Both the position numbers and the translations under genes were made by a program. From IMG/VR virus record IMGVR_UViG_3300035698_027913, positions 1 to 27,232 of that record: DNA of 27,232 bases; one strand, given 5' to 3'. Positions 3,258 through 20,591 of this stretch are shown in pieces. The stretch is from a virus. Position 1 is the first letter of the stretch; every line of letters begins with the position of its first letter. The notes under the pieces are model-generated. The model did not search any database, was not told where the DNA came from, and worked only from the letters and a program-made list of their open reading frames with translations.

Positions 3258-3355
3258 TCTTTCGCCTCTGCGTCCTCTCTGGATGTTTAATAGGGCTGGT
3301 TTCGACCAGCCTTCTCTCTTTATGTGAACCAATTCAAAAACAGGGTATCCAATGA
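3251..3355 (+). CDS. tiny hydrophobic peptide with lipobox-like LSGC (34 aa)
   Basis: An ATG at 3251 opens a 34-codon frame that overlaps the preceding gene by 7 bases and the methyltransferase start by an ATGA. It would be MLIFRLCVLSGCLIGLVSTS followed by a short polar tail, that is one hydrophobic stretch with LSGC at residues 9-12 resembling a lipoprotein signal. The stretch before the Cys is short for a real signal peptide. Its exact fit between two coupled genes supports translation; it may serve mainly to couple them. Function unknown. Confidence 0.35.
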   Translation: MLIFRLCVLSGCLIGLVSTSLLSLCEPIQKQGIQ

Positions 3356-4554
3356 AAATAATTTATCTCAATCCATCTGAAGTATTCCCCTACCAGAACA
3401 ACCCTCGAATCAATGAAAAAGCAGTGGAAGGTGTTGTAAAAAGCCTGCAGGAATTCGGTTTTCAGCAACCGATCGTGGTCGATGCAGAACACGTCATCAT
3501 CGTTGGACACACCAGGTGGAAAGCTGCCCTGAAGCTCAACCTCCCAAGCATCCCGATCCTGATCGCAGAGAACCTCTCGGCTGAACAGGTGAAGGCATAC
3601 CGCCTAGCCGACAACAAGACTGCCGAAGCATCCGATTGGGATTACACGAAGCTCATAGACGAGATTGCCGATCTGACCCAACTGGATATCGACATCACAT
3701 TGACGGGCTTCTCTGATAAAGAAATCCAGGAAATCCTTGGCATGAATGAGTCCACGACTCAGGGACTTGTTGATGACGACGAAACACCTGACGTCGAGAA
3801 TGTCGAACACCGAGTTCAACCTGGTGATGTATGGGTTCTGGGCGAGCATCGCCTGGTCTGTGGTGACGCTACTCTAGCTGAGGATGTTCAAAAAGTTCTC
3901 TCCAGGGCAGATGAAGTAGCCGATATCGTTTTGACCGATCCTCCGTACAACGTGGACTACGAGGGGAAGGCTGGTAAGATCCAGAATGACAAAATGGGTG
4001 GCTCGCAATTTCTCACATTCCTCACGGAAGCGTTCAAGAACATGGCTGAGCACACAAAAGAGGGTGGCGTGGTTTATGTGTTCCACGCTGATACTGAAGG
4101 CATCAATTTCCGAACTGCTCTCGCCGTTGGAGGCTTTGAACAAAAGCAGACCCTGGTCTGGAATAAGAACTCCGCAGTGATGGGTCGCCAGGACTACAAC
4201 TGGAAGCATGAGCCGATCATGTACGGCTGGAAACCTGGTGCAGCTCACTATTTCAACAAGGATTTCAAGCAAACGACCGTTATTGATCATCCACGCCCCA
4301 CAAAGAACGAACACCACCCCACTATGAAGCCTGTGGACCTGTTGGTCCTGTTGCTCCAGAATAGCTCTATCACCGGTGATGTGGTACTTGACACCTTTGG
4401 TGGATCCGGATCGACGCTAATTGCTGCAGCAAAGACCGGTCGCAAAGCACGCATCCTTGAGCTGGACCCCAAGTTCTGTGATGTGATCCTTGAGCGTTGG
4501 GAAACATGGTCTGGTGAAAAAGCAGTCCGCATGGAATTGGAGATGGCAGGATGA
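3352..4554 (+). CDS. ParB-like domain fused to beta-class DNA methyltransferase (400 aa)
   Basis: Residues 1 to about 115 are a ParB/sulfiredoxin-like domain: IYLNPSEVFPYQNNPR, then LQEFGFQQPIVVD, IIVGHTRWKAAL and the AYRLADNKTAEAS helix. Residues about 185-400 are an S-adenosylmethionine-dependent DNA amino-methyltransferase: catalytic motif TDPPY with DPPY at 196-199, and the S-adenosylmethionine site DTFGGSGST starting at D347, followed by ARILELDPKFCDVI. The DPPY-before-FGGSG order is the beta arrangement, giving N6-adenine or N4-cytosine methylation. ParB-MTase fusions are common in phages and usually act as orphan modification enzymes shielding phage DNA from host nucleases. No restriction partner is nearby. 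Target sequence cannot be read from the protein. Confidence 0.88.
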   Translation: MKIIYLNPSEVFPYQNNPRINEKAVEGVVKSLQEFGFQQPIVVDAEHVIIVGHTRWKAALKLNLPSIPILIAENLSAEQVKAYRLADNKTAEASDWDYTKLIDEIADLTQLDIDITLTGFSDKEIQEILGMNESTTQGLVDDDETPDVENVEHRVQPGDVWVLGEHRLVCGDATLAEDVQKVLSRADEVADIVLTDPPYNVDYEGKAGKIQNDKMGGSQFLTFLTEAFKNMAEHTKEGGVVYVFHADTEGINFRTALAVGGFEQKQTLVWNKNSAVMGRQDYNWKHEPIMYGWKPGAAHYFNKDFKQTTVIDHPRPTKNEHHPTMKPVDLLVLLLQNSSITGDVVLDTFGGSGSTLIAAAKTGRKARILELDPKFCDVILERWETWSGEKAVRMELEMAG

Positions 4555-7531: not shown

Positions 7532-8282
7532 ATCGGTTGAATGGGAATATTTAGCCGAGCTCATCCAAGATTTTCCTCCAAAAAGAAAACTTGACAACGA
7601 CCCCGAAGTTGCAGTCGACAAAGCATTCTTACTGCTCAGGGATAGAACAAAATCGGTCGAAGCTTTTAATATGTTCGAAGATCTTGGCCCCCCCTTTTTC
7701 GACTGGGATTTGACCTCAAAGATTTCAGCCGTTGAAAAGATAATTCTCACATATCACAGTGTCCTTTTTAAGCGAATCCTGTCTAACAATGGAGAGTACA
7801 GAAAATCAACGGACCCCTACGGGGGTAAAGTGGGATTTGGAGGGAACCTCCGCTCTGAAACTAGAATAAAATATCCAGGTTGTGGGCCAGCATCCATCTC
7901 TAAGAGGGTGCGAGAGGCAATCACTCAGCTATTCAACGAGCGGGAAGACAAGGTAGAGAGCGCAATCAGATTCTATCAGCAATTCGTATTTTGTCACCCC
8001 TTTTATGATGCTAACGGTCGAATTGCACGATTTATAGTGAACTCCTACCTTCGATATCACGGAATAATTATACTTTGGACTCAAATACACCAAAGCAGGC
8101 GAAATTTCGTACGCCGACTGAATAAGTGTCATGACCGGTATAAATCCCATGATAAACAAGCTTATGAGCGGCAGATGAATTATTTTGTTTCATACATAAA
8201 ACAGCACCTACTGAAAACATCCGAACTTGGGGACACGGTTGAGCCGTTAGATAAAATCAAAAAGCCTCGGCTCCAGAAATAA
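7524..8282 (+). CDS. Fic-domain protein, probable toxin partner of the Panacea protein
   Basis: 252 aa, starting at TTG 7524 inside the antitoxin frame (8-base overlap); no better start is in frame. The Fic core has the early helix HSVLFKRILSNNGEYR and the catalytic motif HPFYDANGRIAR at residues 158-169, with His158 as the catalytic base. Fic enzymes transfer AMP or another phosphate-containing group from a nucleotide to a protein hydroxyl; Doc-type members phosphorylate EF-Tu. The anion-loop acid (D162) and the Asn-Gly-Arg are intact. I find no clear (S/T)xxxE(G/N) inhibitory helix, so control probably comes from the neighbour. Its 3' end overlaps the oppositely oriented terminase gene by 26 bases and no terminator separates them. 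Confidence 0.85.
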   Translation: MSKSVEWEYLAELIQDFPPKRKLDNDPEVAVDKAFLLLRDRTKSVEAFNMFEDLGPPFFDWDLTSKISAVEKIILTYHSVLFKRILSNNGEYRKSTDPYGGKVGFGGNLRSETRIKYPGCGPASISKRVREAITQLFNEREDKVESAIRFYQQFVFCHPFYDANGRIARFIVNSYLRYHGIIILWTQIHQSRRNFVRRLNKCHDRYKSHDKQAYERQMNYFVSYIKQHLLKTSELGDTVEPLDKIKKPRLQK

Positions 8283-9576
8283 CCCCAGGCCCAATCAGGT
8301 CGTGTGATATACCCATCATTAGTGCATCGCTATAATCAGGTGAAAAATTGAGTCTTTTCTTGATGTCATCCTTTGAAAGCACGGTGATCATTTTGTCCCC
8401 ATCCACTTTGTATCGATGTGCAGCAATATCCTCACGCAACCTCTGGTGATCTGGAATCTGAATAAGTTCATCTTTAAATAATTCTCTCAATTTCCAATAG
8501 CCCTGAGAACGTAGATTTCTAAAAGTGAACGCTGTCCCTCCCTGTAATTTGGGCTTTGCTCCTGAGATAAACTCACGCACCTTAAAGCTCTGGGCACGCA
8601 AGTTATCCACCACACCAGCACCTAGTCCAACACCATCCACAACGATGCGGTTTCCAGGGATCCTGTTCTCAGCTGCATAGAGGGAAACCCTACTGGAAAG
8701 TGTGTGGGTATCCATCCCCTTGAAAGTCTCCTGATTGAAAAGCGTCACTATCCGGTCGTCCTCAAAGATATGGGACAATACTGAAAGGTCATCCCCATAC
8801 CGAGCAACGTCCACGCCCAGCCCTTGAGTCCCTGCAATCTTTGGCCTGGTGTCATAGGTGGCATTTTTTACCCATCGGAACGGGATCAGCTGCGCAGGAT
8901 CATCTTTCGTATCCCAACGGCCAAGGATGTACCGCTCCCATTCGTCTGGAGTGAGAATGTTCTGCAAATCATCGATATATCCAGGTGGGAGGTGAGGATT
9001 TTCTGTTGGCAGTGCCGGAATGAAAGCATGGTTGGCAAGTTTTTGATCATGAAACCTTCTTTTGACCCAGGAGTCCTCGGGATTGCATGTCAGCATAATT
9101 CGCTTTGGAGAACGAGTTCCATTGGGTAGAACCCATCGGCCTACTCTGGTGGCAAGGATCCGGAAAGCCTTTTCGTCTACTTCGTCCGCTTCTTCAATAC
9201 ATGCCCAGCCAACCTCCAATCCTTTGAGCTTGTTCAACTCAGGGTCTTTTGTGATATCCGCCTCAAGGAATTCAATTACAGACCCATTGATCAGGGTGAT
9301 AACCATATCAGACCGGTTGAAAGATTTGATCAGTTCCGGTGGGCATACCCGCAGGAATGTCATGAGGGTGGTTTGTTTCAGTCGTTTGAGGGTTTTTCGT
9401 ATGAAGACACCACGGTTCCCTGGGTACTTCATGGAAAGGTCCACTCCTTCACCAGAGACGGCGTAGGATTTCCCTCCGCCCATTGCTCCCCCATACAACC
9501 TGAATAGCTGGGGAGCTTTGTGGAACTCTACTTGTTTTGGATGAGGAGTGTAGTACTTGGCTGCATTGACGATCAT
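8257..9576 (-). CDS. terL: large terminase subunit (DNA-packaging ATPase/nuclease)
   Basis: 439 aa. ATPase half: Walker A GGAMGGGKS at residues 29-37 and Walker B ACIEEADE at 125-132, with the LKGLEVG sensor region just before. Nuclease half: GLGVDVARYGDDLSVL supplies the first metal-binding Asp, IVVDGVGLGAGVVDNL the second, and DYSDALMM near the C-terminus the third. It pumps DNA into the prohead and cuts the concatemer. The start overlaps the small-terminase stop by 4 bases. Length and motif order are normal for the Terminase_6-type group. Its last codons are antisense to the Fic gene. Confidence 0.95.
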   Translation of the reverse strand: MIVNAAKYYTPHPKQVEFHKAPQLFRLYGGAMGGGKSYAVSGEGVDLSMKYPGNRGVFIRKTLKRLKQTTLMTFLRVCPPELIKSFNRSDMVITLINGSVIEFLEADITKDPELNKLKGLEVGWACIEEADEVDEKAFRILATRVGRWVLPNGTRSPKRIMLTCNPEDSWVKRRFHDQKLANHAFIPALPTENPHLPPGYIDDLQNILTPDEWERYILGRWDTKDDPAQLIPFRWVKNATYDTRPKIAGTQGLGVDVARYGDDLSVLSHIFEDDRIVTLFNQETFKGMDTHTLSSRVSLYAAENRIPGNRIVVDGVGLGAGVVDNLRAQSFKVREFISGAKPKLQGGTAFTFRNLRSQGYWKLRELFKDELIQIPDHQRLREDIAAHRYKVDGDKMITVLSKDDIKKRLNFSPDYSDALMMGISHDLIGPGVISGAEAF

Positions 9577-9998
9577 TCCATAATCTCATCTTCAGCAGTG
9601 GAATCTCCCGTAGGGGGTGGGTCCGGCTCCGGCACTGCGCTCTGGTAGATAATTGTCTGCTCGGATTCAACCTTTTGAACCTTTAGACCCAGGAGCTCAT
9701 CGACTTCTTTCAAAGCCTGGATCGCACCCTTGAAATCTCCCAGCTGGACGAGGCGTGAATAGAGGAAGTTTAGTTTCGCAAGTGACTGTCCCATTGCCTG
9801 GGTTTGGAACCCATCTCGGATAGTTTCAAATTCCGCCAGAGCCTTGTTCATGTAACGTTGCACTGAGCGAGGTCCGATGCCGTATTTGTTGTCCAAAGTT
9901 GTCGCAATTTGATTGCTTCGTGCGCCGATGATGAGCATATCAACGATATCCCTAACCGCTTGCTCACGTTCACTTTTCTTTAGTTTTGGTCCTGGCAT
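9573..9998 (-). CDS. terS: small terminase subunit
   Basis: 141 aa beginning MPGPKLKKSEREQAVRDIVD. Residues about 10-60 form a helix-turn-helix-like region (RSNQIATTLDNKYGIGPRSV), expected to recognise the packaging site. A helical region follows (about 70-115; SLAKLNFLYSRLVQLGDFKG) that should drive ring assembly, then an acidic Pro-rich tail that probably contacts the large subunit. It lies directly upstream of and overlaps the large-terminase gene, the standard arrangement. The portal stop is only 36 bases upstream. Confidence 0.85.
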   Translation of the reverse strand: MPGPKLKKSEREQAVRDIVDMLIIGARSNQIATTLDNKYGIGPRSVQRYMNKALAEFETIRDGFQTQAMGQSLAKLNFLYSRLVQLGDFKGAIQALKEVDELLGLKVQKVESEQTIIYQSAVPEPDPPPTGDSTAEDEIME

Positions 9999-10034
9999 AA
10001 TTGGTCTGTCTTCCGCAAAACTGGCGACAACTGT

Positions 10035-11303
10035 CTACACAGCACTTTTCAGAGTGTTTCTGAGTTGAACAATTTGAGTGATTAGGTTGACAGCATTTGT
10101 TTTTGAGACGTCCTCCAGGTCCAGCAAATTCTTACCCTCATCGGGGGTTAAAATCTCATCTTGAACAAGTCCACGAACGTTCTCTATGTCGGATGTGTTT
10201 GAACTGAGATCAATTCCTCGGAACTTGATTCGAAGACCCGTCTCGTTCAGAAGTGTCCTGTTGAGAACGGATTCGAAGATTTGCTGCTTTGGAGAAATCG
10301 ACACCTCTTTGAAAATCTTCAACTGCTGTTCTGCTTCACCCCCGCCTCCCATCGAACCAGAAGTCACCACACCCATAATCCTTGGTGGAACACCGTGGCC
10401 GGACAACACTTCGTCCCTGATTGAAGTCCGGAGCTTTTGAAAGTCAGCATCCTTAACCTCAGCCATGATTTTCTCGAAACGAACTTTAATATTGGGGTCA
10501 TTGATTGGGAGATACAGCGTCTTGTGAGAATTGTCGATCCCCTTCACCGTCTGGGTCAAGAAGTCACGCACCAGGGCTTTGGTGGGGCCATCGAACTCTC
10601 CTCCCTCAACGATAACAGCCAGCGCTGGGATTGCGTTGTTCCTGAAAAACCGATAGTTCCATTCAACGGCCAGTGCATCCAGGATCATGGATCCAACAGC
10701 ACCAATCCAATCTGGCCTACCATAGTAGGTGGAACGATTCGAGGGATATTTGAAGCGAATCATCTGGTTCTTGGCACGATCGCTCTTCTTTTTAAGACCA
10801 TACGGGGTAAAGTGGACTGTTCTGCCATTCAACTCCTGTATGAAGGTATCTTTCGTTCGGTTGAGATACATGGTTTCCCCAGGAACCCAGTACAACTCTG
10901 CTGGATCACCTTTCCTGGTCTGAATGACCTCAATGTGACCACCCCCAACTTCTTCAAAGTCCATAAATGCAGACAGAATGACCTCATGAAAGCTTTCCAA
11001 GGGGTTAGCAGTGATCAAGATTTTCGGCCACTTATCCTCGGGGACATATTCACCCTCTACATCGAGAATGTCGAACCCTAGCCCCACTGCAGATACAGCC
11101 TTGAAGCTTATAGCTTTATGGTGGTAGGTGTTATCGATGGTCTTTATCGCTCTGAGATTGATAGGGTGAGGAATAATGTTTTCCTGCTTAACGATCTCAT
11201 CGTTCAGCTGAGAACTTGCCTTTTTTACTGACGCAAGCGATGGTCCGGATTCCAGACCAGTTGTAAGGGTGATGATTTCAGCAGATGGTTTGGCATCACT
11301 CAT
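10035..11303 (-). CDS. phage portal protein (PBSX/HK97-like)
   Basis: 422 aa from the ATG at 11303, which has GGAGG seven bases upstream on the minus strand; a longer in-frame start at 11408 would run through the operator-like dyad. Typical portal features include AISFKAVSAVGLGFDIL, a segment of about 90-100 residues with ELYWVPGETMYLNR and FTPYGLKKKSD, then PDWIGAVGSMILDALAVEWN and GHGVPPRIMGV. The C-terminus is helical (VNLITQIVQLRNTL). It forms the dodecameric ring through which DNA enters and leaves. It is first in the leftward packaging operon, so order is portal, small terminase, large terminase, the reverse of the common terS-terL-portal order. Confidence 0.85.
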   Translation of the reverse strand: MSDAKPSAEIITLTTGLESGPSLASVKKASSQLNDEIVKQENIIPHPINLRAIKTIDNTYHHKAISFKAVSAVGLGFDILDVEGEYVPEDKWPKILITANPLESFHEVILSAFMDFEEVGGGHIEVIQTRKGDPAELYWVPGETMYLNRTKDTFIQELNGRTVHFTPYGLKKKSDRAKNQMIRFKYPSNRSTYYGRPDWIGAVGSMILDALAVEWNYRFFRNNAIPALAVIVEGGEFDGPTKALVRDFLTQTVKGIDNSHKTLYLPINDPNIKVRFEKIMAEVKDADFQKLRTSIRDEVLSGHGVPPRIMGVVTSGSMGGGGEAEQQLKIFKEVSISPKQQIFESVLNRTLLNETGLRIKFRGIDLSSNTSDIENVRGLVQDEILTPDEGKNLLDLEDVSKTNAVNLITQIVQLRNTLKSAV

Positions 11304-11374
11304 TGGATTTCCTCCGTGATTATTAACTCCATGTGCCAAGGTAGCCACCCCGCAAAAACCACTTCTGCATGAAT

Positions 11375-11408
11375 TTGTCACCGACACCGACACGGGTGTA
11401 TATGACAA
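11375..11408. promoter_or_regulatory. 34-bp symmetrical dyad over a late-promoter-like sequence
   Basis: Between the divergent portal and protease genes lies TTGTCA-N3-ACACC-N6-GGTGT-N3-TGACAA, two nested pairs of perfectly complementary arms with equal 3-base spacers. The left outer arm TTGTCA (11375-11380) is a 5/6 match to a -35 box, and TATATG (11399-11404) 18 bases on is a partial -10 box for rightward transcription toward the protease at 11451. A dimeric or tetrameric regulator bound here could switch both late operons. The dyad is seen; the regulator is unknown. Confidence 0.5.
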
Positions 11409-15644: not shown

Positions 15645-15836
15645 ATGCTGGTTAGGGGTAAAAAGAAGGTGAAACCACAAGTTTCACTCAGCCAGTCTAC
15701 CAGGGTGATGATGTACACACCTGACGGTACACTGATTTCAGTCCTTCGCAGGAAGGTTGGAGTGAAGTTGAAACAAGGATTCTCTTTCGCTGACAGGGAA
15801 ACACGCAAAGCCGACCAGAAAAAAAGGTCGATGTGA
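15645..15836 (+). CDS. small basic protein, unknown function (63 aa)
   Basis: Starts 7 bases after the tail-tube stop with no strong ribosome site and ends 1 base before the next ATG. It is very basic (MLVRGKKKVKPQVSL at the start, KADQKKRSM at the end) with a central strand RVMMYTPDGTLISVLRR. No family recognised. Its place at the head of the membrane-protein cassette suggests a small tail or lysis accessory, but composition alone does not decide this. Confidence 0.45.
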   Translation: MLVRGKKKVKPQVSLSQSTRVMMYTPDGTLISVLRRKVGVKLKQGFSFADRETRKADQKKRSM

Positions 15837-15837
15837 A

Positions 15838-16086
15838 ATGACCCTGGAAGAACGCAGACAACTGGAGGTCCTGACTCATGCTGTTAATGATCTGAATGTG
15901 AAGGTTACCCAGGGGTTGACAGAGCTTAAAACGGAGCTGAAGTCCTACCCAATTGTAAAGGATCAAGTCTATACAAACAAGGACCGAATCACGCAGCTGA
16001 AAACGGCAGGCGGCGTGACAGTGGCGATCCTAACCCTATTAATCACGGCTGTTGGAGCTGTTGCATCTGTAGCCGCACTGCAATGA
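15838..16086 (+). CDS. holin-like/XhlA-type membrane protein (82 aa)
   Basis: Residues about 1-55 form an amphipathic coiled-coil-like helix (LEVLTHAVNDLNVKVTQGL, LKTELKSYPIVKD), and residues about 58-80 are one membrane segment (TVAILTLLITAVGAVASVAA). This N-in coiled coil plus C-terminal membrane helix is the layout of hemolysin XhlA-type lysis accessories and some holins. It begins 1 base after the previous stop. The family is not certain, but membrane topology is clear. Confidence 0.6.
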   Translation: MTLEERRQLEVLTHAVNDLNVKVTQGLTELKTELKSYPIVKDQVYTNKDRITQLKTAGGVTVAILTLLITAVGAVASVAALQ

Positions 16087-16099
16087 AACGAGGTATGAA

Positions 16100-16492
16100 A
16101 TGAGAAAACGAATTAGCGTGATTTTCCTGGTGATGGTGATCCTCCTGATCGGAGGCTTTACCATTTTAGATGCACAAGATTCCCAGGTTCGACCCAAGAA
16201 GGAGCTCACCGCAGAATTAGTCCTGTCTGCTCCCTCTCAACCTGCCACAGATATCCAAATCCAGGATGAGCCTGGGGAAATCATTCAAGATTTGGAAGGA
16301 ATGGACCCTGTTGGCGATTGGTTAAGCCAGTTTGCCTGGTATCAGAGAATCGAACGGTTTCTGCCTGGTCTGATCCTTCTCGGGTTACTGCTCGGCAAGG
16401 TGGCAAAGTACACACCTGGAAAGCAGGATGATCTCATCTCTGGAGCTTTGCTTTTGATTGGTCGATTGCTGAGGAAAACGCCCAAGAAATGA
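16100..16492 (+). CDS. membrane protein of the lysis-type cassette (130 aa)
   Basis: An N-terminal hydrophobic segment follows basic residues (MRKRISVIFLVMVILLIGGF), resembling a signal anchor or signal peptide. A polar, Glu/Gln-rich middle comes next, then a second hydrophobic segment at about 90-105 (LPGLILLGLLLGKVA) and an amphipathic basic C-terminus (LLLIGRLLRKTPKK). Two membrane segments next to a holin-like gene suggest a holin or membrane anchor, but no known family is evident. Coupled by ATGA overlap to the DUF5675 gene. Confidence 0.55.
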   Translation: MRKRISVIFLVMVILLIGGFTILDAQDSQVRPKKELTAELVLSAPSQPATDIQIQDEPGEIIQDLEGMDPVGDWLSQFAWYQRIERFLPGLILLGLLLGKVAKYTPGKQDDLISGALLLIGRLLRKTPKK

Positions 16493-16893
16493 AACGCTTC
16501 CACCTTCATAGGGTAAGCAGTAGCCATAAGGTTACGATGGGAGCTCTGGTCCACCAGGGCATTCCCTTTTTGGTTACGCTTGAGCGTCCTTGGAGGTTCA
16601 ATAAGCCATTCGAAAGCTGTGCCCCTGAAGGTGAGTACCTCTGCGAGCGATACGTCTCGGAACATTATCCCCTGACCGCACTCGCCTGGCAGGTGAAGGA
16701 TGTCACCGGCAGAAAGAACATGCTTATTCACGCTGGAAACACCGTCAAGGACTCAAAAGGGTGCACGCTACCAGGAACCGGTTTCTGTGTTCTCAAAGGT
16801 GAACCAGCAGTCCTCAATAGCAAGGAAGCTCTCCGGATCCTTAACCAGGTGACCGGTGGAGAGCCATTTGAATTGATAATTCACAGAAATTGA
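16489..16893 (+). CDS. DUF5675-family protein (134 aa)
   Basis: Contains the DUF5675 pattern: TLERPWRFNKPFESCAPEGE, then RKNMLIHAGNTVKDSKGCTL with His81, Ser89 and Cys92, and the GFCVLKG strand. The IHAGN...DSKGC arrangement resembles the His/Ser-x-Gly-Cys site of L,D-transpeptidase-like enzymes, so a wall-related activity is conceivable, but the family's biochemistry is not established to my knowledge. It overlaps the membrane-protein gene. In phages, DUF5675 genes lie in tail or lysis regions. No classical lysozyme or amidase is present in this window, which makes this the best local candidate for a wall-acting enzyme, as inference only. Confidence 0.65.
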   Translation: MKRFHLHRVSSSHKVTMGALVHQGIPFLVTLERPWRFNKPFESCAPEGEYLCERYVSEHYPLTALAWQVKDVTGRKNMLIHAGNTVKDSKGCTLPGTGFCVLKGEPAVLNSKEALRILNQVTGGEPFELIIHRN

Positions 16894-16906: not shown

Positions 16907-17542
16907 ATGCCTCCCTCAAGTAAAACCGTCCATGTATATCAGGACGCCACTCTAAAAGCATCTCCAACTGTCAACCAGACAACCGGAGCCTGGGATGCTG
17001 GCAATGTTTCATTCTCCTCTGGTGATCATGCCTTAAAAGCTCGAGCTGAAGATATTGCCGGTAATTTTTCAGGCTACACCCAGAAAAATGTCCGTTTTGG
17101 GGACAATAATGTGCCCGCTCTACCGGACCTGCTTGACGATTCAGGGGAAAGCTCTGTTGATAATATCACCAACGATGACACCCCTAGAATAAAGGTAACA
17201 CTAACCCTTCCCATTCCTGCAGGAGCGTCTGCTGTTGCACAGGCATCGGTTGGAAAGCTCGTTTTGGTGAATGCTGGGACTGAGTCTGAGATCGCCAGCG
17301 AGGTGCCAAACTACACAGCACCTAATATCTTCGATTACACATTCCAGCTGGCGGCACTTGCGGATGGTATTCACGGATTTCGAGCAAAGTGGGCGGACGC
17401 TTTGGATAACCCATCAGCCGCCTCTGCTGCATTAGAAATAACTGTGGATACCCAGGCTCCGGACGTGCCTTCCATCACCTCTGTCGTGGATGGCCAGGTA
17501 TTCGTCGGAACCTCCATCCCTGTTTCGGGATCCGCTACCTGA
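16907..17542 (+). CDS. Ig-like (Big-type) tail protein, starts and ends mid-domain (211 aa)
   Basis: Ribosome site GAAAGGAGAAGCTGAATG. The N-terminal 60 residues look like the later strands of an Ig-like repeat (WDAGNVSFSSGDHALKARAE, DIAGNFS). A full repeat follows (about 65-190; SSVDNITNDDTPRIKV, then LADGIHGFRAKWADAL, and ITVDTQAPDVP). The last 17 residues, DGQVFVGTSIPVSGSAT, are normally the first strands of the next repeat, after which two stops (TGA TAG) end the protein. Ig-like domains on phage tails usually bind host surface sugars. A terminator follows at 17574. The truncated ends are discussed as a separate finding. Confidence 0.7.
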   Translation: MPPSSKTVHVYQDATLKASPTVNQTTGAWDAGNVSFSSGDHALKARAEDIAGNFSGYTQKNVRFGDNNVPALPDLLDDSGESSVDNITNDDTPRIKVTLTLPIPAGASAVAQASVGKLVLVNAGTESEIASEVPNYTAPNIFDYTFQLAALADGIHGFRAKWADALDNPSAASAALEITVDTQAPDVPSITSVVDGQVFVGTSIPVSGSAT

Positions 17543-17573
17543 TAGCAGCCTGACAGGACCGGTGTATGAATCT

Positions 17574-17603
17574 AAGGGGAGGGGCCAGTCCCTTCCCCTT
17601 TTT
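17574..17603 (+). terminator. rho-independent terminator after the Ig-like gene
   Basis: AAGGGGAGGG pairs with CCCTTCCCCTT, with one bulged base and a short CCAGT-type loop, followed by a T-run (17599-17603). It would end or attenuate transcription in the middle of the late region, between the lysis/Ig cassette and the fibre gene. Confidence 0.6.
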
Positions 17604-17621
17604 ACAATAGGATGATGAGAG

Positions 17622-18680
17622 ATGTCTTTTCAGACAATCGACCTGGGAACCCAGGGGACACAATCGGGAGATACAATTAGAAACGCCTTCACGAAGGTGA
17701 ATTCTAATTTTGTGGATGCCCAGAGCCAGATCGATGGAAAGGCTGATTCGGGGCATGTGCACGACTCCAGATACGTCAAGAGCAATGGTTCAAGCTGGAC
17801 ACCACACACCAGCACAAATCGAAGTAGTGGTTGGAATACCTTTTGGACTGACTATGGATATATCCAGTTCGGTCCTGCTAATTCATCCTGGGCTCACATC
17901 TATTCAACAAAGCCATTCTACTTCAACGATCAAATTCATGTTCTTGGAAATCAGGTATTTCACCCAGGGCACCTCCCTGCGATTTCTGAGGTGAGCGGAC
18001 TCCAAACATCTCTGGATGGGAAAGCTCCTACCCACACTCATCCCTACCGCTCAGACTCCTGGGTTCCAGCTTGGACTGATATCACTGGGAAACCTGCGAC
18101 ATTCGCTCCTAGCTCACACACTCATTCACTTTCTGAGATAAGCAATTCCGAGGATGGCGGTGAATTGATTGCCGCTGATGGACTCGGTGGCTTGACAGGA
18201 ACCGGACTCCTGGCGGATGGAGTCTTCATGAAGGATGATACCCTGGCTGAGGTTGGGGATGTGACTCTCTCAGCAATCGGGGACGGAGAGCTTCTTCTGT
18301 GGAATTCGACACTTGGGGAATGGATCAACCGGACATTGGCTGAGGCTGGAATTGCATCAACTACTCACTCACATACGGCTTATGCCTCCAAAACAGTCGC
18401 TGAGACCATTTCCGGATCATACAATTTTACTAATACCCTGGTCGAATTTGCCCAGAGGCTTGGTCACTATGGAGACACAAACACATATATTGATTTTGCA
18501 ACTGACAGAATCACAATGTTTGCCGGTGGGTCGTTATGTTTCGATACAACAAAAGGCGCAGCTCTTCAATGTTCTACCGGAAACGTCCTAGATATCGATT
18601 TCGATGAGGGGACCGGAGAGCTCTTTATTAAGGGTCAAAACTTTTGGTGGACGTCCGGAAAGATATTCGCAAAGGTCTAG
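17622..18680 (+). CDS. tail fibre / receptor-binding protein with HxH motifs (352 aa)
   Basis: The N-terminus SFQTIDLGTQGTQSGDTIRN followed by AFTKVNSNF is the common virion-attachment module of phage fibres. The shaft carries repeated HxH sites: GHVHDSRYV, APTHTHPYRS, SSHTHSLSEIS and TTHSHTAYASK. In known fibre tips such clusters bind iron ions that hold a trimer. ASVG-type turns and Trp-rich segments (SSWTPHTSTN, NSSWAHIYSTKPF) point to a receptor-binding middle. The gene lies just after a terminator and is followed 3 bases later by the next Ig fragment. Host receptor cannot be inferred. Confidence 0.75.
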   Translation: MSFQTIDLGTQGTQSGDTIRNAFTKVNSNFVDAQSQIDGKADSGHVHDSRYVKSNGSSWTPHTSTNRSSGWNTFWTDYGYIQFGPANSSWAHIYSTKPFYFNDQIHVLGNQVFHPGHLPAISEVSGLQTSLDGKAPTHTHPYRSDSWVPAWTDITGKPATFAPSSHTHSLSEISNSEDGGELIAADGLGGLTGTGLLADGVFMKDDTLAEVGDVTLSAIGDGELLLWNSTLGEWINRTLAEAGIASTTHSHTAYASKTVAETISGSYNFTNTLVEFAQRLGHYGDTNTYIDFATDRITMFAGGSLCFDTTKGAALQCSTGNVLDIDFDEGTGELFIKGQNFWWTSGKIFAKV

Positions 18681-18683
18681 AGA

Positions 18684-18983
18684 ATGAGCGACACTTTCAG
18701 AGTCAAACTTTTTCTGCAACTCGGGATCAATCCTGACCCGGAAACAGACACCTTGCTGGGCGAGGATTTGACATTTCCCTCGGATCAGTTTGATATCATC
18801 ATCGCATCACTTCCCGAAGGACGGCACACGATCTACTCAGTCGCATACGACCTCGCCGGAAACCAATCCAATATCGATGACAAGGACATCGGCACCCTTC
18901 CCAACCCTATGCAGGTCTCAGGTCTGGTGGACTGGACCATTGGCGAAATGCATCAAACACAGATAGGAATATTCAGCTCGTGA
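18684..18983 (+). CDS. Ig-like fragment protein (99 aa)
   Basis: Reads as the later strands of an Ig-like repeat: FRVKLFLQLGINPDPETDTL, then LPEGRHTIYSVAYDLAGNQS, a close paralogue of the following gene (MAGATPDPQNDTLI, NHSIYSVWTDRLGNVSS). The C-terminus (NPMQVSGLVDWTIGE) resembles the first strands of another repeat. The ribosome site is weak; the start lies 3 bases after the fibre stop. The gene ends in a GTGA overlap with its paralogue and in a different frame. Confidence 0.6.
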   Translation: MSDTFRVKLFLQLGINPDPETDTLLGEDLTFPSDQFDIIIASLPEGRHTIYSVAYDLAGNQSNIDDKDIGTLPNPMQVSGLVDWTIGEMHQTQIGIFSS

Positions 18984-19216
18984 AGAACCCTTACGAACAA
19001 CTCAGTATTGCGATTTACGAAATGGCTGGTGCAACCCCCGATCCGCAGAATGATACCCTTATCGATTCGGCGCAGGTGCTTCCGCATGTTTCCACTTCCT
19101 GGGACATGGGTAACCACACCTTTACCGTTGGGAACCACAGTATTTATTCAGTCTGGACGGACCGCCTTGGAAATGTCAGCAGTCCCTCCCAGGTGATCAG
19201 CTTCGAGGTGCAATAA
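18980..19216 (+). CDS. Ig-like fragment protein, paralogue of the previous gene (78 aa)
   Basis: GTG start at 18980 within the GTGA overlap; no ATG is available near the start of homology. The sequence LSIAIYEMAGATPDPQNDTL and FTVGNHSIYSVWTDRLGNVS repeats the pattern of the preceding protein, with about the same spacing between the PDPxxDTL loop and the YSVxxDxxGN strand. It therefore looks like one Ig-like domain lacking its first strands. Stop TAA shares a base with the ATG of the next gene (TAATG). Tail location is inferred from context. Confidence 0.55.
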   Translation: MKNPYEQLSIAIYEMAGATPDPQNDTLIDSAQVLPHVSTSWDMGNHTFTVGNHSIYSVWTDRLGNVSSPSQVISFEVQ

Positions 19217-20028
19217 TGGCTCGACAAATTGTAAAAACACGATCTGAAATACTGTGGAGCTTCGACAGTCACGAAGTGCTCTACAAAGAGGGTATCGTCG
19301 AGCTTTCCTTCATCATGAAGAATCCCCGTGGTTACAAGGCGAGTCTGGCCACCTTCCAGTTTTATAACGACCATGCTTCAGAATGGGTCCCTGCGTCCTT
19401 GGATTCTGTTCAGTATGTATCACTCGGTGGGTTTCCACTGACAGGCAAATTTGAGAAAGTGATTATCCGTTGGGACTGTGCTTCCGACCTTCGCATCATG
19501 AAGGCTTTTCAAAACGTGCACTTTGCTGTGGCTTTCAATGATCGTGAAGAACTGATCGGGACAGAAACCGAACTCAGAGAATACACAATTCCCGAGGTTG
19601 ATTTCACTATCCAGGATGAACCCAGAATCATCAAACCCCACTCAAACGACCCTTATCTAATTTTTGAATTTGTGAACCCAAAATCAATCAGGGACGCATT
19701 GCTGCATTTCAAGCTTGAGGTGGACACCGCTGATACATTCGATTCTCAAAATCTGGTCACATTCAATTCTTTTGAGGACCAGGCGGGTTGGAAGTACGAT
19801 GTGAATGGAGTCTGGACCGATTTGGTTCCAGAAGGACTATCTGGCCTTTCGTACTGGAAATTCAAATTCGAGGATGCAAGCTTGACGGCTCTCACCGGTG
19901 GTGACTACTATTTCCGGATCACACCGATCCTTTCACAAATCAAGGTTCATTTTTATTCGATTGCAGACGGCCAAGTCTTTCAAACCACGACGATCCCTGT
20001 GAATGGGTACGTCGAAATACTCGATTAA
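19216..20028 (+). CDS. tail-region structural protein ending in an Ig-start-like tail (270 aa)
   Basis: Mostly beta-strand: IVELSFIMKNPRGYKASLAT, VHFAVAFNDREELIGTETEL, LREYTIPEVDFTIQDEPRII, then FEFVNPKSIRDALLHFKLEV and YWKFKFEDASL. No known family recognised. The last 20 residues, DGQVFQTTTIPVNGYVEILD, match the C-terminal end of the 16907 gene product (DGQVFVGTSIPVSGSAT). Coupled to the previous gene by TAATG. The next gene, a tail chaperone, starts 15 bases after the stop behind a strong AGGAGGT site. A fibre-attachment or tail-surface role is inference from neighbours. Confidence 0.6.
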   Translation: MARQIVKTRSEILWSFDSHEVLYKEGIVELSFIMKNPRGYKASLATFQFYNDHASEWVPASLDSVQYVSLGGFPLTGKFEKVIIRWDCASDLRIMKAFQNVHFAVAFNDREELIGTETELREYTIPEVDFTIQDEPRIIKPHSNDPYLIFEFVNPKSIRDALLHFKLEVDTADTFDSQNLVTFNSFEDQAGWKYDVNGVWTDLVPEGLSGLSYWKFKFEDASLTALTGGDYYFRITPILSQIKVHFYSIADGQVFQTTTIPVNGYVEILD

Positions 20029-20043
20029 ACAGGAGGTAGATAA

Positions 20044-20415
20044 ATGGATAGAACAGAATTCGCAGAGGTAAAAGATTACACGCTACAGGGCATACCCGTC
20101 TGGCAGCACGAGCTAACAATTGGACAAGATATTAAACTGGCCGAGCTGGTTGCAAAGCTTGGTGGTGTGGATTGGAAGAATCTAAATGGTGTTCTCCGTG
20201 CCCTTCAGAAAGATGGTATGCTGGGTGATTTTCTGAGTGTGATCCTTGAAGGGGATGTCTCAAATATTGATCCACTCAATCTTACCAACTCTCAAGTCTC
20301 AGAGGTGGCTCAAGATTTTTTCGGCTTAAACGGAACAGGGATCGAGAGCTTCAAGAATTTGTTCAATCAAGTGGTATCGATACCAGGACTTCCGGAGGAG
20401 CAGAAGGAGAGTTAA
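20044..20415 (+). CDS. tail-assembly chaperone, short (G-like) form (123 aa)
   Basis: Strong ribosome site ACAGGAGGTAGATAAATG. Size, helical composition (LAELVAKLGGVDWKNLNGVL, MLGDFLSVILEGDVSNIDPL) and position just before the tape measure fit lambda gpG-type chaperones, which coat the tape measure during tail assembly. Family members usually make a longer frameshifted product, and a slippery heptamer and open -1 frame are present here (see the next two entries). The short product ends PEEQKES at TAA 20413-20415. Confidence 0.7.
   Translation: MDRTEFAEVKDYTLQGIPVWQHELTIGQDIKLAELVAKLGGVDWKNLNGVLRALQKDGMLGDFLSVILEGDVSNIDPLNLTNSQVSEVAQDFFGLNGTGIESFKNLFNQVVSIPGLPEEQKES
20316..20322 (+). other. 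candidate -1 frameshift slippery site T TTT TTC
   Basis: In the chaperone frame (GAT TTT TTC GGC) this heptamer has the X XXY YYZ form, so both ribosomal tRNAs can re-pair after a one-base slip. The -1 frame downstream is open without a stop to 20589. A second, poorer candidate, C TTA AAC, lies at 20325-20331. Confidence 0.5.
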
Positions 20416-20591
20416 GGGACTTATTTAGCGAATTGGGCGAAGAGCCTGACGAGGTTGAGACTCTTGAGAACCTGGTCTTCTCTCACGTAGAGGGAGACCC
20501 CATAAAAGGCCGACAAGTCTTAAGGTTGATGAGGACAGTGGAAATGCTGAAATGGAACGAGATAGCAGGAAGGTTCAATAATGGCTCTTGA
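20322..20591 (+). CDS. -1 frame extension of the tail chaperone (GT-like fusion)
   Basis: If the ribosome slips at 20316-20322, translation continues here for 89 codons to TGA 20589-20591, giving a fusion of about 182 residues. The distal part is coding-like: LRDLFSELGEEPDEVETLEN, then LVFSHVEGDPIKGRQVLRLM and MLKWNEIAGRFN. It fills the otherwise empty gap and overlaps the tape-measure start by 11 bases, the usual position of the T domain. No plausible ATG opens this frame early; a TTG at 20433 is the only alternative independent start. The part between the slip site and about 20400 is less convincing as coding, so the slip could occur later. Confidence 0.5.
   Translation, partial: RLKRNRDRELQEFVQSSGIDTRTSGGAEGELRDLFSELGEEPDEVETLENLVFSHVEGDPIKGRQVLRLMRTVEMLKWNEIAGRFNNGS

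Follow-up and report, generated by a model that had tools for sequence, protein, structure and literature searches.

Locus and genes

The window, meaning the whole stretch of 27,232 nucleotides analyzed, is a 27 kb virus record in which the head genes come first and the tail genes after. Placed among the phage tail genes, from the tail tube to the tape measure, are four genes that carry pieces of Ig-like domains and are referred to here by their first positions (16907, 18684, 18980, and 19216). N-terminal pieces with strands C-G are called acceptor halves, and C-terminal pieces with strands A-B are called donor halves. Related loci come from L003, an IMG/VR contig (gene 16907 92% identical); L002, a contig from a genome of Candidatus Neomarinimicrobiota (73%); L011, a genome from that phylum as well (45%); and L013, an IMG/VR contig (44%). 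The sample thus comprises five loci, of which three are closely related. The phage family carrying the split Ig genes is found in deep-branching marine bacteria. The features of the window are as follows.

15221: tail-tube position
15645-16489: small membrane and lysis-like genes
16907..17542, + strand: gene 16907, 211 aa, with acceptor half, complete Big_13 domain, and donor half; boundaries the same in L002, L003, L011, and L013
16910..17101, + strand: acceptor half of 16907, Ig strands C-G, residues 2-65; partial Big_13 match
17114..17452, + strand: complete Big_13 domain of 16907, about residues 70-182 (Pfam)
17447..17539, + strand: donor half of 16907, A-B strands, residues 181-211, ending ...IPVSGSAT; by homology to the 19216 tail
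17574..17600, + strand: terminator-like hairpin after gene 16907 (scan)
17622..18680, + strand: tail fibre gene (Phage tail repeat, PTR)
18684..18983, + strand: gene 18684
18684..18893, + strand: acceptor half of 18684, residues 1-70; by homology to the other acceptors
18894..18980, + strand: C-terminal tail of 18684, residues 71-99; proposed third donor, unconfirmed
18980..19216, + strand: gene 18980, 78 aa, acceptor half only
19216..20028, + strand: gene 19216, 270 aa; donor tail at the C-terminus of a body of unknown fold
19930..20025, + strand: donor tail of 19216, residues 239-270; hhalign 96.9% to the 16907 donor
20044/20433: tail assembly chaperone position
20581: tape measure

Gene 16907 encodes an intact domain between two halves. 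Its N-terminal 64 residues match the Pfam family Big_13 over profile positions 40-95 of 102; the Ig-like fold of this head is incomplete in sequence, starting at strand C with no earlier profile positions matched. Stop-to-stop frames show an in-frame stop 0-1 codon upstream of the ATG at each of the five loci. The middle of the protein, residues 76-182, matches Big_13 at positions 12-102 of 102 (E 6e-13), and with 49.5 bits for the whole protein it is a full domain above Pfam's curated cutoff. The chain then ends in ...DGQVFVGTSIPVSGSAT, the A-B part that usually precedes strand C, and hhalign identifies these C-terminal 31 residues as homologous to the 19216 C-terminus (96.9%). Both types of half are thus present in one gene, and its own tail and own head rebuild one continuous domain in sequence, a feature of which the first-pass annotation made no use. 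Overall, 16907 looks like a slice of a Big_13/Big_7/Big_6 array taken out of phase by half a domain.

At their N-termini, 16907, 18684, and 18980 carry mutually homologous pieces (hhalign 81.7-98.3%, with 98.3% for 18980 against the head of 18684). All three heads start at the C strand, in agreement with the earlier reading that these proteins begin with the later strands of an Ig-like repeat. That reading also had three proteins, 16907, 19216, and 18684, ending in the first strands, so that heads and tails matched in number. A profile test bears this out for 16907 and 19216. The tail of 18684 is conserved, though less so than its head, and it fails the profile test; its join to 18980 gives no Ig hit in a Pfam scan. 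Hence, there are three heads and two confirmed donors, and a count of three to three is not fully established.

Conservation and selection

The splits were sought in relatives and are present in L002, L003, L011, and L013. Gene 16907 starts and ends at the same points in these loci and the window, which are five independent assemblies, and every locus yields exactly three C-G heads with the half profiles. The stop after the 16907 tail is TGA in the window and L003, TAA in L002 and L011, and TAG in L013, so the place of the stop has been kept and the codon has not. Among close relatives, where it could be computed, dN/dS is 0.025-0.18 in both halves, meaning that the halves are under purifying selection. 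Between the window and L002, the halves of 16907 are 89-90% identical and the intact middle domain is 60% identical; the halves are more conserved than the middle domain in comparisons with L002 and L003, but not with L011 and L013.

These observations bear on two simple explanations for the split. The first is that sequencing error or gene decay has broken a longer gene. Nothing speaks for it beyond the broken look of the region, with stops at 17540-17542 (TGA, 16907), 18981-18983 (TGA, 18684), and 19214-19216 (TAA, 18980), and it is refuted by the identical architecture in five independent assemblies. The second is that frameshifting, read-through, or reinitiation links the pieces into one continuous chain. 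Genes 18684 and 18980 do overlap by a few bases in a -1 frame relation, which speaks for it. However, inspection by eye found no slippery sequence at this overlap in any of four loci, and the frame of 18980 is already closed one codon before its start in L002 and L003; together these points make a frameshift fusion of 18684 and 18980 unlikely. Gene 16907 has an in-frame stop before it and a terminator-like hairpin after it; at both 16907 and 18980, the frame is closed and no slippery sequence was found, speaking against a programmed frameshift that would extend an Ig domain. Given the shared cut points, differing stop codons, upstream stops, and purifying selection, we regard error, decay, and frameshifting as very unlikely: linkage into one chain is highly improbable, and error or decay is close to inconceivable.

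A third explanation is that the halves are relics of a cut-up multi-Ig protein, kept as linkers or binding tails with no mutual completion. Continuous Big_13-type proteins of 1,500-4,700 aa do occur in host-phylum genomes, and the tail of 18684 is not recognized as an Ig half, both of which fit this explanation. Among 245 such genomes, further donor or acceptor genes were found in G001 and G246 only, and the other matches lie within larger open frames, mostly of >1,600 aa. Against relics, the exact cut points are kept down to 44% identity with low dN/dS, and among close relatives the intact domain has diverged more than the terminal halves. Moreover, the donor tail is lost where acceptors are absent. 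In L012/L037, a more distant phage, the 19216 homologue stops where the donor tail would begin, and half profiles find no acceptor heads or donors in the sequence examined; L012 and L037 are nearly identical and count as one lineage. The loss of the donor tail there accompanies the absence of acceptor heads, which we count in favor of complementation between the halves. Relic halves are therefore an unlikely explanation.

The first-pass annotation offered, as one of two proposals, that a once-continuous gene was interrupted by insertion of the fibre gene and by stops. This finds no support among the relatives, none of which has a continuous (unsplit) version. The fibre gene itself is highly variable across loci, at 352, 359, 598, or 83 aa, or absent. 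In L013, no separate fibre gene stands between 16907 and the acceptor gene that follows, and the split persists all the same, so insertion of the fibre gene does not explain it. The second acceptor head of L013 is instead fused to a protein of 299 residues, which weakly matches polysaccharide-lyase 14 (concanavalin-like). With this lectin-like fusion as the second acceptor, the half-Ig resembles an exchangeable socket. L013 shows three acceptors against one visible donor, a mismatch that counts against complementation; its 19216 gene is cut off before the end. In L011 (10091-10342), the fibre gene is down to an 83-residue stub that resembles the window fibre's N-terminal portion.

Joining the halves

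If the halves complete one another, a donor followed by an acceptor should read as one domain. A-B donor and C-G acceptor pieces were concatenated as text and scanned with Pfam, where the cutoff for Big_7 is 24.1 bits. The join of the L013 16907 donor to its own acceptor scores 26.1 bits over positions 4-68 of 70, above the cutoff, and also covers nearly the whole of Big_6 and Glucodextran_B. All other joins are at or below the Big_7 cutoff. For example, the L013 16907 donor gives 24.2 bits with the next acceptor and 18.6 bits with L013 18980, and the L011 16907 donor gives 22.6 bits with the 18684 acceptor. The L011 19216 donor scores 21.6 bits for Big_7 with the 18684 acceptor, and its joins to acceptors match either Big_7 at this score or Glucodextran_B at 17.8 bits. 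No Big_7 match was found for L011 18980 behind the 16907 donor. Big_7 was likewise absent from the three acceptors scanned alone (L013 16907; L011 16907 and 18684), from donors alone (16907 of L011 and L013), from acceptors behind a shuffled donor, and from the single reversed order scanned (L013 16907).

L011 and L013 supply the highest-scoring Pfam joins; the gain is weak or absent in the window, where the self-join raises Big_13 from 23.0 to 23.8 bits and a Big_7 match of 14.0 bits spans the donor only. An intact Ig repeat from an Azospirillum protein aligns with 99% of the L011 self-join, junction included (38.6% identity, E 0.03). A home-made profile of joined halves, run on intact arrays, showed no gain over the acceptor alone, the reversed order, or shuffled donors, which indicates that only some profiles see the donor; this test is not taken as support. 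In hhalign, the joined domain and the intact middle domain align in the F-strand region alone. As judged by some of these profiles, the joined halves make Ig domains that are recognizable in sequence.

The strength of the L013 self-join raises the possibility that 16907 closes on itself, with acceptor and donor pairing in the same chain or in a closed swapped dimer or trimer, as a permuted two-domain protein. The gene has both halves, its own halves score best when joined (26.1 bits, L013), and linkers of ~9 residues could permit closure, given a middle domain folded back alongside. On the other hand, 19216 is donor only, while 18980 is acceptor only, as is the lectin-like protein of L013; with a single type of half, at least these proteins cannot self-close. 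In addition, the AlphaFold2 model of 16907 (a poor one) places residues 183-211 below pLDDT 50. Self-closing is thus quite unlikely.

AlphaFold2 single-chain models built from 4-5 sequences have a pLDDT of 53.5 for 16907 and 40.2 for 19216, too low to use. A solved-structure search with the 16907 profile gave no relatives below 0.01, and the L011 join gave one chance match. In PHROGs, 16907 matches one 3825-position family of unknown function and nothing else, and 18684, 18980, and 19216 have no match. In public phage records, 16907 has only two matches, both weak and enterobacterial, and 19216 has none.

Possible mechanism

What is the most plausible function of the split? The genes are split, the halves are conserved and under selection, and they fit together in sequence. 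We consider strand complementation between chains, joining split Ig-like domains into a tail appendage, to be the best explanation, and with modest confidence a probable one. Of the two earlier proposals, completion between separate chains is partly supported, and the better supported of the two, by the cut points, by selection, and by the cross-chain joins. Because the AlphaFold models are too weak to decide, we infer the mechanism, including the physical pairing of the chains, their order, and their place on the tail. Specifically, 16907, 18684, 18980, and 19216 would be structural tail proteins joined by completing each other's Ig-like domains, with A-B strands at the C-terminal end of one chain filling the gap in the C-G head that starts the next. 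A covalent isopeptide link between the halves was considered as another candidate joint. The donor-only 19216 would be the tail-bound start; 16907, with acceptor, donor, and an intact Ig domain as spacer, would be a link that could follow itself; and the acceptors 18684 and 18980 would bear distal or capping parts. The earlier note imagined a tail surface network. One donor-only chain, one chain with donor and acceptor (18684 possibly being a second), and acceptor chains fit a linear chain of start, links, and cap better. In L013, where the second acceptor carries the lectin-like domain, the split Ig may act as a plug and socket for swapping tips.

A more speculative extension is that 16907 polymerizes with itself, its tail completing the head of the next copy. 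The product would be an Ig fibre of open length, with 19216 as its start, acceptor-only caps, and tips exchanged through half-Ig sockets. This is a tentative reading, less likely than not. The hairpin 3' of 16907 has an uninterrupted stem of 10-12 bp at the same place in 5/5 loci with differing stem sequences, followed by a T-run in the window, L002, and L003 that is short or missing in L011 and L013. A terminator-like hairpin here would allow more 16907 than downstream gene products, which is no more than compatible with 16907 as a repeated link. If strand complementation does take place in this tail, it would be a genome-sparing route to long appendages and would provide a modular socket for the exchange of receptor-binding tips.

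Comparison with known systems

Cells are known to build very stable filaments by strand complementation, and chaperone-usher pili are an established case of donor-strand exchange. In type 1 and P pili, as proposed here, a strand of the next subunit completes an incomplete Ig-like fold, and the chain is heteromeric with tip and start subunits. The pilus donor is an N-terminal extension, whereas here it would be a C-terminal A-B pair. Unlike the pili, these are phage tail genes: scans with Pfam and PHROGs matched no chaperone or usher among the genes covered, and inspection by eye saw no signal peptide in the split-Ig genes. Donor-strand exchange is also established in the TasA/TapA fibres of Bacillus subtilis (PMC9674648, PMC10151520), which share with the arrangement proposed here head-to-tail strand donation and a separate donor-only starter, but differ in their unrelated sequences, in donating one N-terminal strand, and in being secreted biofilm protein. 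A further established case of donor-strand exchange is the Sulfolobus thread filament (PMC9715654), which resembles this case in its head-to-tail Ig-like subunits and putative donor-only cap; it is archaeal and glycosylated, with no sequence relation shown. The Big_13/Big_7/Big_6 repeats of giant adhesins belong to the same sequence family of domains as those described here, but form one continuous chain, whereas here the chain would consist of separate proteins. Ig-like folds also occur on phage surfaces in lambda gpV, T4 Hoc, and T5 pb10, whose Ig-like domains are complete within one chain. In open-access full-text papers, we found no example of strand complementation in a phage tail. The split-Ig proteins would work like donor-strand systems, and we do not class them as a member.

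Other features of the loci

The gene before 16907 (window 16489-16893; L011 8665-9153; L013 7579-7983) occupies a possible endolysin place. It is a DUF5675 gene in the window, and its counterparts in L011 and L013 look unrelated and have no Pfam hits; a Glyco_hydro_108 protein in L013 is located elsewhere (2069-2542). At the tail assembly chaperone position, an overlapping downstream frame (window 20044-20591; L003 8829-9373) gives the pattern expected for a programmed frameshift. At window 8257-11408, the terminase large subunit and portal genes are on the minus strand, in contrast to the protease, capsid, and tail genes on the plus strand. Finally, an N6/N4 DNA methyltransferase at window 3352-4554 is fused to a ParB-like N-terminal domain (phrog_498; Pfam ParB_N and N6_N4_Mtase).
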